64,000 nucleotides of DNA from Mesorhizobium shangrilense. Lineage in GTDB: Bacteria > Pseudomonadota > Alphaproteobacteria > Rhizobiales > Rhizobiaceae. The position numbers were made by a program, and so were the translations under genes. The stretch is taken from NCBI RefSeq assembly GCF_028826155.1, contig NZ_JAQGPN010000001.1, positions 1,741,501 to 1,805,500 of the forward strand, read 5' to 3'. Shown here in pieces: positions 11,438-54,829 of the stretch; the stretch's first letter is position 1, and the number at the start of each line of letters is the position of its first letter. The notes beneath the pieces are model-generated. The model made no database searches and had not been told where the DNA came from. It was given only the letters and a program-made list of their open reading frames with translations.

Positions 11438-11512
<75 letters not shown>

Positions 11513-52064: not shown

Positions 52065-52817
52065 ATGTTCGATCCCAAGAAGCTGCTCGACGATCTCCTC
52101 GGCACGCAGGTTCCCGGGACGGGATCCACGGTGCGGGACAAGGTCTCCCAAGCCGGTCAGATGGCGAAGGACAACCCGCTGGCCGCCGGCGCGTTGGTCG
52201 CGGTCCTGCTCGGGACGAAGGCCGGCCGCGACATGACCGGGACCGCGGTGAAGCTCGGCGGCCTGGCTGCGATCGGCGGGGTCGCCTACAAGGCCTGGCA
52301 GAACTACAAGAACGGCGGCAATCCGGCCGAGGCGGCGCAGAAGGATCCCGAACTGTTGCCGCCGCCGGAGGACACTAGCTTCCATCCGTCGCAAGCCCCG
52401 CAGGGCGAGGCCGAGTTCACGCTGACGCTGGTGCGCGCCATGATCGCGGCCGCCAACGCCGACGGTCATATCGACGAGGCAGAGCGCAAGAACATCGCCG
52501 ACAAGCTCAGCCTGTCGGGCATCGGCTCGGACGCAGAAGCGTTCCTGCTCAAGGAGATCGAGAGCCCAATGAGCATCGATCAGCTGGTCGCCGCGGCTCA
52601 GACCGACGCCCAAAAGGTCGAGCTCTATACGGCCTCGCGCCTGACCATTGCGCCGGACACGCGCACCGAGCGCGGCTATCTCGACCTGCTGGCGGGCCGG
52701 CTGAAGCTGCCGGACGCGCTGATCGACCACGTCGAGGCGACCATCGCCGCCAGCGTTCCGCCGCAGCCCGCGGGCGGAGCCGGCGCGCCGGGCTCGGCGC
52801 CAAATTCGCGCTGGTAA
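52065..52817 (+). CDS. DUF533/TerB-like tellurite-resistance-family protein (YebE-like)
   Basis: 250 residues. MFDPKKLLDDLLGTQVPG, a central Gly/Ala-rich hydrophobic segment (NPLAAGALVAVLLGTKAGR, then KLGGLAAIGGVAYKAWQNY) and a TerB-like C-terminal helical domain (LTLVRAMIAAANADGHIDEAERKNIA, with DGHID as the metal site type) define the DUF533 family. GGAGGAC is 6 bases before the ATG. Function is unknown: an inner-membrane protein with a cytoplasmic TerB domain. A candidate sRNA lies just downstream. Confidence 0.85.
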   Translation: MFDPKKLLDDLLGTQVPGTGSTVRDKVSQAGQMAKDNPLAAGALVAVLLGTKAGRDMTGTAVKLGGLAAIGGVAYKAWQNYKNGGNPAEAAQKDPELLPPPEDTSFHPSQAPQGEAEFTLTLVRAMIAAANADGHIDEAERKNIADKLSLSGIGSDAEAFLLKEIESPMSIDQLVAAAQTDAQKVELYTASRLTIAPDTRTERGYLDLLAGRLKLPDALIDHVEATIAASVPPQPAGGAGAPGSAPNSRW

Positions 52818-52842: not shown

Positions 52843-52881
52843 TTAACCTTTCGTTAACTTTCGAAGCGCATGATTCGAATC
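52843..52881 (+). promoter_or_regulatory. Perfect CtrA box and double GANTC methylation sites
   Basis: TTAA-CCTTTCG-TTAA (52843-52857) is an exact TTAA-N7-TTAA CtrA recognition site. GATTC (52872-52876) and GAATC (52877-52881), two abutting CcrM sites that together form TGATTCGAATCA, follow 14 bases later. Such pairing marks cell-cycle-regulated promoters in alphaproteobacteria. The next transcript start would be near 52879. Confidence 0.65.
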
Positions 52882-52953
52882 AGTCGGACCGGCTTTCCTC
52901 CTCCCAAGCGGTTCTGATCAGGGCGGCCCAACCATCGGACCGCCCTATTTGTT
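52879..52953 (+). ncRNA. Candidate trans-acting sRNA with an anti-Shine-Dalgarno loop
   Basis: Hairpin: ATCAG-(TCG)-GACC-(G)-GCTT pairs with AAGC-GGTT-CTGAT (52879-52918, one G-U pair), leaving TCCTCCTCCC (52896-52905) as the loop. A terminator follows at once: GGGCGG pairs with CCGCCC (52921-52945, extendable by two pairs across a mismatch), then TATTTGTT. CCUCCUCCC in a hairpin loop plus a terminator matches the organisation of several alphaproteobacterial sRNA families (cuckoo-like and alpha-r types). No coding frame fits the segment. The 5' end is inferred. Confidence 0.6.
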
Positions 52954-53016
52954 GGCAGCTTGCCATCCCTCTTCTCATCTGCGATGCCATGTCCTCCACG
53001 AAGAGGATGTGTATCC

Positions 53017-53772
53017 ATGGCAGATGGCAAGACAGCGATCGTGACCGGCGCGGGCACGGGCATCGGCAAGGCGGTCGCGACCACGCTACTCCTGAACGGC
53101 TGGAACATCGTTTTCGTCGGCCGTCGTCAGAACCTGCTGGACGAGGCGATCGCCGCGGCCGGCACGACCGGGGCGAGGGCGCTGGGGATCTCCTGCGACA
53201 TCACCAAGCCGGCGGAAGTGGACGCCATGTTCGACCGCGCCGTGGACGAATTCGGCCGCGTCGACCTGCTGTTCAACAATGCCGGGATGGGCTTCAAGCC
53301 GGCGACCGTGGACGAAATCCCGGTCGAGGCCTGGGTGGATATCGTCAACGTCAACCTGACCGGCTCGTTCCTGTGCGCCCGCGCCGCCTTCCGGGTGATG
53401 AGGGCGCAGTCGCCGCAGGGCGGCCGCATCATCAACAACGGCTCCATCTCGGCGCATGCGCCGCGCCCGGGCTCGGCGCCCTACACGGCCACCAAGCACG
53501 CCATTACCGGACTGACCAAGTCTCTGGCGCTGGACGGGCGGCCGTTCGACATCGCCTGTGGCCAGATCGACATCGGCAATGCGCTGACCGACATGGCGCG
53601 GGCGATGACGGTGGGCGTGCCGCAGGCGGACGGCTCGATCAAGGCCGAGCCAACCATGGACCCGCAGCAGGTGGCAGATGCGGTTCTCCACATGGCAAGC
53701 CTGCCGCCGGAAGCGAACGTGCTGTTCATGACCGTGATGGCGACAAAGATGCCGTTCGTCGGACGGGGGTAG
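53017..53772 (+). CDS. Short-chain dehydrogenase/reductase
   Basis: 251 residues, classic SDR. The cofactor site is [16 protein letters not shown], then CDIT for the adenine ring, NNAGMGF, catalytic Ser in [12 protein letters not shown], and [10 protein letters not shown] (Tyr and Lys). The C-terminus [14 protein letters not shown] replaces the usual substrate loop; a substrate is not deducible. The GRR after the first strand favours NADPH. I start at 53017 ([13 protein letters not shown]) with GAGG 10 bases upstream. The IS630 element begins 18 bases after its stop. Confidence 0.88.
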
Positions 53773-53792: not shown

Positions 53793-54829
53793 GAGCGGCG
53801 TGCATTCAGGCATACCCGGCGGCCTTGAAGTAGTTCTGGCATTCGGTTGATGGGTAGAGGGTGCAGATGTCGCCGATGGCCTGCCAGAGGCGGTCGATGG
53901 TTCGGATGGCGCGCGTCCTGAGGTGAGCCTTCAGCTTTGAGAAGGCCATCTCGATGGGGTTGAGATCGGGGCTGTAGGGCGGCAGGAACAGCATCCATGC
54001 GCCACGCGCCCGGATGGCGGCCTGCGCCTTTGGGCTCTTGTGGGCGGCGAGGTTGTCGAGGATGACGACGTCGCCTTTGGACAGCGTCGGTGCGAGTTGG
54101 GTCTCGACATAGGTTTCGAAGATGCAGCGGTTCATCGGCCTGTCGACGACGAAGGGCGCAGTCAGGCCGAAGCATCTCAGCCCGGCAATGAAGGTCTGGG
54201 TCTTCCAGTGCCCGAACGGCGCCTTCGAGCGCAGCCGCTGGCCTTTTGGACATCGGCCGCGCAGGCGCGTCATCTTTGTGGTGGTTCCGGTCTCGTCGAT
54301 GAACACCAGGCGATGGGGTTCAAGCCGCATCCTCGGCTGGCGGGCGACCCACTCCTGGCGCGCGGCTGCGACGTCGGGCCGGTCCTGCTCGCTGGCGGAC
54401 AGCGTTTTTTTTGAAGCGGTAGCCGTTGCGGATCAGCCAGCGCGAGATCGAGGACGGCGCGACGACCGTGTCTCGCCCGGCCAGTTCGGAAGCCAGCTCC
54501 GGCATGGTGATGTCGTCTTGCTCGGCGATCCGGCGCACCAGGAAATCCCGGTGCGGATCGAGTTTCGAGTAGCGCCAGCCGCCCTCCGGCTTTGCCTTGA
54601 GGCTGCCGCTCGCACGATACGCCGCCATCAGCTTGACGACGAACGACACCGAAACGCTGAAATGGGCCGCAGCCGCATGGCACGTCCCGCCGCGCCCCAC
54701 AAAGCCCGCAACACGCTCACGAAGATCAAGCGAATAGGATCGGGTCATCGCAAATCACCTCCAACCGAAGTGAATCACGAAAACCCAGCTGCTAGAATCT
54801 CTTAGATTCAGTCAGAACGCCCGACGCTC
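53793..54829 (-). mobile_element. IS630-family insertion sequence, 1037 bp, flanked by TA duplications
   Basis: The ends are imperfect inverted repeats: GAGCGGCGTGCATTC on the left and, reversed, GAGCGTCGGGCGTTC on the right (12 of 15 positions equal). TA stands on both sides (53791-53792 and 54830-54831), the duplicated target of this Tc1/mariner-related family. It is inserted between the SDR and the cyclase gene without breaking either. Its two frames encode one transposase split by a slippery A8 run. Confidence 0.9.
53806..54748 (-). CDS. IS630-family transposase in two frames (frameshift at an A8 run)
   Basis: Frame A (54748 to about 54412) gives the N-terminal helix-turn-helix region: MTRSYSLDLRERVAGFVGRGG, SVSVSFVVKLMAAYRASGS and VAPSSISRWLIRNGYRFKK. 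The catalytic part is in a second frame ending at 53806: RLVFIDETGTTTKM (first Asp), VVILDNLAAHKS (second Asp) and LPPYSPDLNPIEMAFSKLK (Glu), the DDE triad. The frames meet at eight A residues (complement of 54405-54412); one base has to be skipped, or slippage must add or remove A, to join them. Programmed slippage is usual for IS630; otherwise the copy would be inactive. No other damage is visible. Confidence 0.88.

Follow-up and report, generated by a model that had tools for sequence, protein, structure and literature searches.

In the Rhizobiales, the known roles of small RNAs presenting the motif CCUCCUCCC are in stress and nutrient regulation. What is known of CtrA comes mainly from the protein-coding genes that it controls. 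Cuckoo RNAs, as defined by Reinkensmeier and Giegerich in 2015, reportedly consist of two to four adjacent hairpins with variable stems, each carrying CCUCCUCCC. The ar14 family (RF02344; NfeR1/Smr14C2 of Sinorhizobium meliloti) is described as having three hairpins, each with the motif, and a model length of 123, with the NfeR1 promoter placed under LsrB and NtrC (PMC10746234). The CcsR RNAs (CcsR1-4/CcaF1, RF02791) of Rhodobacter sphaeroides are described as processing products of an operon that contains a DUF1127 gene and has an RpoHI/HII promoter (PMC10253847). For alpha-r8/mmgR (suhB, RF00519) and SisA-D, the seed is given as UUUCCUCCCU, in a single-stranded stretch that follows a weak hairpin (PMC12559287). 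Caulobacter crescentus CcnA is presented as having a CtrA box in its promoter and a C-rich loop that pairs with G-rich 5' UTRs (PMC8959179, PMC4287350), and the CtrA-bound cell-cycle start sites of Caulobacter are listed as including six ncRNAs (PMC4287350).

CtrA-driven ncRNAs of Caulobacter and CCUCCUCCC sRNAs such as ar14 and CcsR are each already known. Our literature search returned no report of a family joining a CtrA box to a CCUCCUCCC sRNA; the original description of cuckoo RNAs, which may list such loci, lay outside its coverage. From sequence comparison, we file the locus described here as a putative new family of single-seed anti-Shine-Dalgarno (anti-SD) sRNAs with a conserved CtrA-type promoter.

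Locus layout and comparison with described RNAs

The locus lies in a 64,000-nucleotide stretch of Mesorhizobium shangrilense DNA, analysed as a whole and called the window below. Its features, in window positions, are:

52065..52817, + strand: upstream DUF533 gene (PF04391), by domain match
52843..52857, + strand: CtrA box TTAA-N7-TTAA, TTAACCTTTCGTTAA, exact and read directly
52869..52874, + strand: -10-like element CATGAT; the A at column 27 and the T at column 31, counted from the box start, are each kept in 71/74 family members
52872..52881, unstranded: two abutting GANTC (CcrM) sites, GATTC GAATC, GATTCGAATC, 14 bases past the box
52881..52952, + strand: predicted sRNA of ~72 nt, its ends placed from the -10 element, conservation and the second hairpin
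52883..52918, + strand: stem-loop 1 with the anti-SD seed, 36 nt, from fold and covariation
52897..52905, + strand: seed CCUCCUCCC (DNA CCTCCTCCC), unpaired in the fold and complementary to GGGAGGAGG (Shine-Dalgarno)
52920..52946, + strand: terminator-like GC-rich hairpin, then AUUUGUU (DNA ATTTGTT), from the fold; helix 3 of the covariation count
52959..52984, + strand: promoter-like CTTGCC-N11-CATCTGCGA between sRNA and SDR gene, a pattern picked after looking
53017..53772, + strand: downstream SDR-family dehydrogenase gene (PF00106), by domain match

The exact TTAA-N7-TTAA, the two abutting GANTC sites 14 bases on and the hairpin with the anti-SD loop were all confirmed by direct reading, as claimed in the first-pass annotation. 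The 64-kb window contains a single box, a single copy of the 9-mer counting both strands, and a single abutting GANTC pair, and the three fall inside 65 bases. The GC-rich terminator with a T-rich tail proposed in that annotation held only in part: a second GC-rich hairpin is present, but its T tail is weak in M. shangrilense. Simple sigma-70 and terminator scans at the locus found nothing in this species. At least four T in a row were present near the RNA end in 52/74 family members. The only start-like codon inside the predicted sRNA is a TTG at 52949, near its very end. As sequence features, the locus thus combines conserved structure, its own promoter, a terminator (weak in this species) and the lack of an ORF, the anatomy of a trans-acting sRNA. 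Directly past the SDR gene lies a transposase (53806-54748, - strand) in two overlapping frames, a DDE_3 part and an HTH part, the latter matching IS630-type models with scores under the cut-offs; eight T in a row lie near the SDR/transposase junction.

An Rfam search of the window at gathering cut-offs returned only a tRNA (11441-11512, - strand) and suhB/mmgR (RF00519; 13209-13284, - strand; 65.7 bits). The nearest Rfam family at the site was ar14, with 22.3 bits against a gathering cut-off of 58.8 bits, and CcsR1 (RF02791) gave no Rfam match there. Twenty related loci were also scanned: the 16 with a box reached at most 30.8 bits, and the four without one passed the ar14 cut-off. Membership of a named family, raised as a possibility in the earlier annotation, was accordingly dropped for ar14. 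The locus shares with ar14 the CCUCCUCCC hairpin loop and the class of intergenic trans-acting sRNA in the same part of the Alphaproteobacteria. It differs in having one motif hairpin in place of three, a terminator-like hairpin, a length of ~72 nt and a CtrA box.

The loop motif and variable stems also recall the cuckoo RNAs. Unlike their reported definition, however, the motif occupies only one of the two hairpins (one distant relative, L161, excepted), and CCTCCTCCC occurs only once in the window. CcsR1-4/CcaF1 are likewise CCUCCUCCC hairpin RNAs, but the present locus neighbours DUF533 and SDR genes and has a promoter with a CtrA box. With alpha-r8/mmgR and SisA-D it has in common a short sRNA, an anti-SD stretch and a terminator; its seed, in contrast, lies in a hairpin loop, and an Rfam match to suhB is absent at the site. 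CcnA and other CtrA-bound ncRNAs resemble it in combining a CtrA box in the promoter with a C-rich loop, whereas CcnA is described as 182 nt long, located at the replication origin and bearing a CCCC loop. An sRNA list for Mesorhizobium huakuii includes the unannotated MH_s36, given as 73 nt and on the same strand as both neighbours (PMC5596092). MH_s36 is possibly an orthologue.

The M. shangrilense genome also holds seven true ar14 copies, none with an adjoining exact box. Six form a tandem array with 161-162 nt spacing (L001, G000:C1:3405216-3406146) behind small ORFs, the first of which encodes a DUF1127 protein (PF06568); this locus is CcsR/CcaF1-like. The seventh lies at C1:4301363-4301478.

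Conservation and covariation of the predicted RNA

Relatives were collected as loci with a DUF533 gene from named genomes, among which 29 were close orthologues (L008-L035 and L043). The same layout of TTAA repeat or half-site, -10-like element, anti-SD hairpin and second hairpin was found in 22 of these 29, from Aminobacter, several Mesorhizobium, Oceaniradius stylonematis, Limoniibacter endophyticus and several MAGs. It was not seen in the other seven by a scan that required a TTAA half-site in flanks of up to 3 kb. A covariance model of the RNA alone (R1, box excluded) was built from 26 sequences chosen with TTAA upstream, a choice that could favour box-bearing lineages and counts against the box statistics below.

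R1 found one strong copy in the M. shangrilense genome (74.2 bits, E 5.4e-17), the next match scoring 21.9 bits. Across 247 genomes of the same bacterial family, 144 had a match at E<=1e-3, and at least 76 (M. shangrilense included) matched at >=45 bits, a lower bound spanning 37 genera. The named DUF533 loci and these 247 genomes partly overlap and are not independent sets. A search of 297 genomes of the order at E<=1e-5 gave 15 with a match, eight of them from the same bacterial family (M. shangrilense included). The other seven scored 34-41 bits without an exact box adjoining the motif, and matches above 41 bits were confined to that bacterial family. Deeper ancestry was sought in 385 genomes of the class with a composite pattern in which the box is followed after 28-48 nt by CTCCTCCC, and was rejected as not shown: the pattern matched the M. 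shangrilense genome and six others, against 10 backwards-control matches. Taken as a sequence family, the locus belongs to a conserved set of predicted RNAs.

Folded alone, the M. shangrilense sequence is unremarkable (z -1.18; 26/200 shuffles were as good), so the structure rests on comparison. In the covariance-model alignment A5 of 76 sequences (73 distinct), 98.2% of pair cells were standard, compared to 24.5-56.5% paired in slid-structure controls. Changes on both sides were seen at 12 of 16 pairs (62 cells), and 0/500 shuffles reached any of the five measures, although these counts lean towards structure because A5 was fitted to the model and shuffling ignores relatedness. Helix 3, the second hairpin, was paired in 98.5% of cells. 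RNAalifold, run on a MAFFT alignment (A4) of 62 of 78 box-bearing sequences from which 16 look-alikes had been removed by hand, predicted only the second hairpin; A4 misses stem 1 because loop-length changes shift its columns. In all 73 distinct hairpins from the 78 box-bearing members, the seed was unpaired in the loop and enclosed by at least five pairs. The gain in stability of single hairpins over shuffled flanks was modest (mean z -1.5), a point against the sRNA reading.

The full 9-mer seed was present in 61/74 members and its core, CCUCCC, in 74/74. The hairpin presenting an anti-SD sequence in its loop, as first annotated, is therefore conserved and covarying, and the second hairpin is kept with it. 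The sRNA proposal, which the first-pass annotation had staked in part on conservation in relatives, survived this comparison. In the distant relative L161 (G075:C2), which has a one-mismatch box, the terminator loop also carries CUCCUCCC, giving two seeds.

Position and conservation of the CtrA box

Although R1 does not contain the box, it was found with at most one mismatch in 76/76 family members of >=45 bits and was exact in 66, in agreement with the original CtrA box assignment. This count comprises 74 scripted matches (64 exact, 10 with one mismatch) and two members read by eye (L052 and L184, both exact). In all 74 scripted members the distance from the start of the box (<=1 mismatch) to the model start is 33-37 nt. 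For the 54/74 RNAs not identical to any model seed, the box was present in 54/54 and exact in 46. As a control, the region 80-380 nt further upstream in the scripted members yielded one mismatched box and none that was exact; L144 lacked such a flank. The eight TTAA columns were conserved in 70-74/74 members and the spacer columns in 37-59/74. A second conserved island past the box corresponds to the -10 element (71/74 at two columns), which reads, for example, TATAAT, TACAAT or CATCAT in relatives.

Weaker matches carried the box (<=1 mismatch) less often: 2/4 at 38-45 bits and 2/15 at 30-38 bits, one of the latter mismatched. The four box-less weak matches compared to Rfam (L149, L150, L155 and L158) were all ar14, at 66-94 bits. 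Genome-wide, the exact box occurs at 22 places in 5.55 Mb and the same pattern backwards at 17; the motif is rare but hardly over-represented.

The box starts ~38 nt before the predicted start at ~52881, thus overlapping the -35 position. For one Caulobacter gene, a full CtrA motif at -39 has been read as activating one promoter and one at -14 as repressing another (PMC4287350). The layout at our locus agrees with that of a CtrA-activated promoter (box over -35, 5' base near -39), taking the predicted start and a reference position from this one Caulobacter gene. A CtrA gene is present in the M. shangrilense genome, with 97% identity to a CtrA sequence. Among the other boxes in this genome, 13 of 21 were looked at, in 11 stretches whose neighbouring ORFs were scanned in part. 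Fragments that follow four of them gave their best matches to RcdA, MinC, FtsE and plasmid RepA models; as the scan covered fragments only, the NCBIfam scores stay under the full-length cut-offs. The published S. meliloti account names minC, rcdA and ftsE as genes with CtrA motifs (PMC3616915). No CtrA-type gene was recognised behind the remaining nine of the 13 boxes, which counts against the CtrA reading. A CtrA-type promoter is nonetheless the best reading of the locus; the box position fits CtrA-activated promoters.

The paired CcrM sites fared differently. First annotated as part of the promoter, the abutting pair was not seen in relatives' promoters. GANTC was found within 25 nt past the box in 19/74 members, at several positions, compared to 5.7-6.1 by column shuffling. 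By observed/expected ratio it ranked first of 16 palindromic patterns and by z second of 60 patterns, deviations of a kind that relatedness alone can cause. At the M. shangrilense locus both sites overlap the -10/start region. GANTC is possibly a lineage-dependent CcrM input rather than a defining part of the promoter.

Predicted action, candidate targets and alternative readings

We consider the locus likely to encode a stand-alone, CtrA-activated trans-acting anti-SD sRNA of ~72 nt, with one seed loop that blocks ribosome-binding sites. Phosphorylated CtrA would bind TTAA-N7-TTAA over -35 and activate transcription from ~52881, and the RNA would end at the second hairpin. The loop seed CCUCCUCCC would imitate the anti-Shine-Dalgarno tail of 16S rRNA and pair with GGGAGGA-type ribosome-binding sites. 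Through this pairing a set of mRNAs would be kept from initiating translation. Solute-uptake and catabolic genes are probably well represented among them, and we infer that the silencing would fall at the cell-cycle stage with active CtrA. The earlier proposal of an sRNA with cell-cycle control is thus retained for the covarying anti-SD hairpin behind a conserved CtrA box, and given up for the paired CcrM sites and ar14 membership.

A pool of complementary ribosome-binding sites exists in the M. shangrilense genome, where GGGAGGA-N4-11-ATG has 148 matches compared to 19 for the backwards control. From 100 of these 148 places, 27 stretches with GGGAGGAG were hand-picked; they contained 23 ORFs of >=40 aa, 20 of which were scanned. 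Transport domains were found in 8/20: DctP (two), other solute-binding proteins (four), an ABC ATPase and an oligopeptide ABC ATPase tail. These transport-rich candidates resemble targets predicted for NfeR1 and AbcR in the published accounts (PMC10746234, PMC7143759). The share of transport domains may be a general property of strong SDs. Since GGGAGGA is a strong SD and the seed is common to the seven ar14 copies of the same genome, the candidates do not point to this RNA in particular; CtrA timing may set the RNA apart from those copies. The ctrA mRNA was considered as a target and rejected for weak SD pairing with the seed (-7.9 kcal/mol, compared to -16.8 kcal/mol for GGGAGGAG). In the ctrA leader of this genome (L183), an AAGGAGG that could pair with the CCUCC seed stands ~130 nt ahead of the ctrA start, well away from the SD.

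The main rival is a leader (attenuator) of the SDR gene, because of the linkage between the two: CtrA would drive the SDR mRNA, and the two hairpins would act in cis on read-through or initiation. An SDR gene was found in the flank examined in 56/74 members, downstream and on the same strand in 56/56 and 54-181 nt from the model end. This is more often than DUF533, found in 41/74 (upstream and on the same strand in 41/41), in neighbour counts where 41/74 loci had short flanks; at least one of the two genes was found in 62/74. Against a leader, 18/74 members had no SDR homologue in the flank examined, four of them 3-kb loci with DUF533 (L087, L091, L094 and L103), and the second hairpin is followed by the T run in the 52 members noted above. 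Part of the family also has a promoter-like element of fixed spacing between this hairpin and the SDR gene. CTTG[ACT]Y occurs in 39/56 intergenic stretches (10.5 in shuffled ones) and YATYTGCRA in 23/56 (0.16), and the two occur together in 19 stretches, 18 of which space them by 17, for a pattern that was chosen after looking. The CTTGCC-N11-YATYTGCRA element is perhaps the SDR gene's own promoter, judging from its sequence. We regard a cis-acting leader as quite unlikely.

A CtrA-driven RNA that acts other than by pairing with ribosome-binding sites, for instance as a sponge for another RNA or through binding of a protein, is also unlikely. The 148 complementary sites single out no mRNA, and a Caulobacter RNA sponge is described as pairing with anti-SD sRNAs (PMC12559287). 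The invariant unpaired part is, however, precisely the anti-SD core, and the same 9-mer is reported as the tested seed of NfeR1 (PMC10746234). Very unlikely, in our judgement, is a reading in which the RNA belongs with ar14, cuckoo or CcsR as a degenerate or one-hairpin form, has no special cell-cycle control, and owes its TTAA repeat to nothing more than an AT-rich promoter. The shared loop motif, the weak ar14 score of 22.3 bits and the second seed of the box-bearing L161 would fit such an origin. The box is nevertheless kept base by base with its N7 spacing in 76/76 members; the Rfam scan of 20 loci separated those with a box from the box-less ones that pass the ar14 cut-off, and no ar14 copy in the M. 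shangrilense genome adjoins an exact box.

Returning to a CtrA-activated anti-SD sRNA, a broader role can be proposed tentatively, as possible though on the unlikely side: an RNA arm of CtrA. Once per cell cycle, the anti-SD RNA would shut the ribosome-binding sites of many uptake and catabolic mRNAs, coupling nutrient acquisition post-transcriptionally to division. GcrA/CcrM methylation would add replication timing in species with GANTC near -10. A family spread over 37 genera, its CtrA box kept base for base, would offer a clean and directly testable example of translation placed under cell-cycle control by an sRNA outside Caulobacter.
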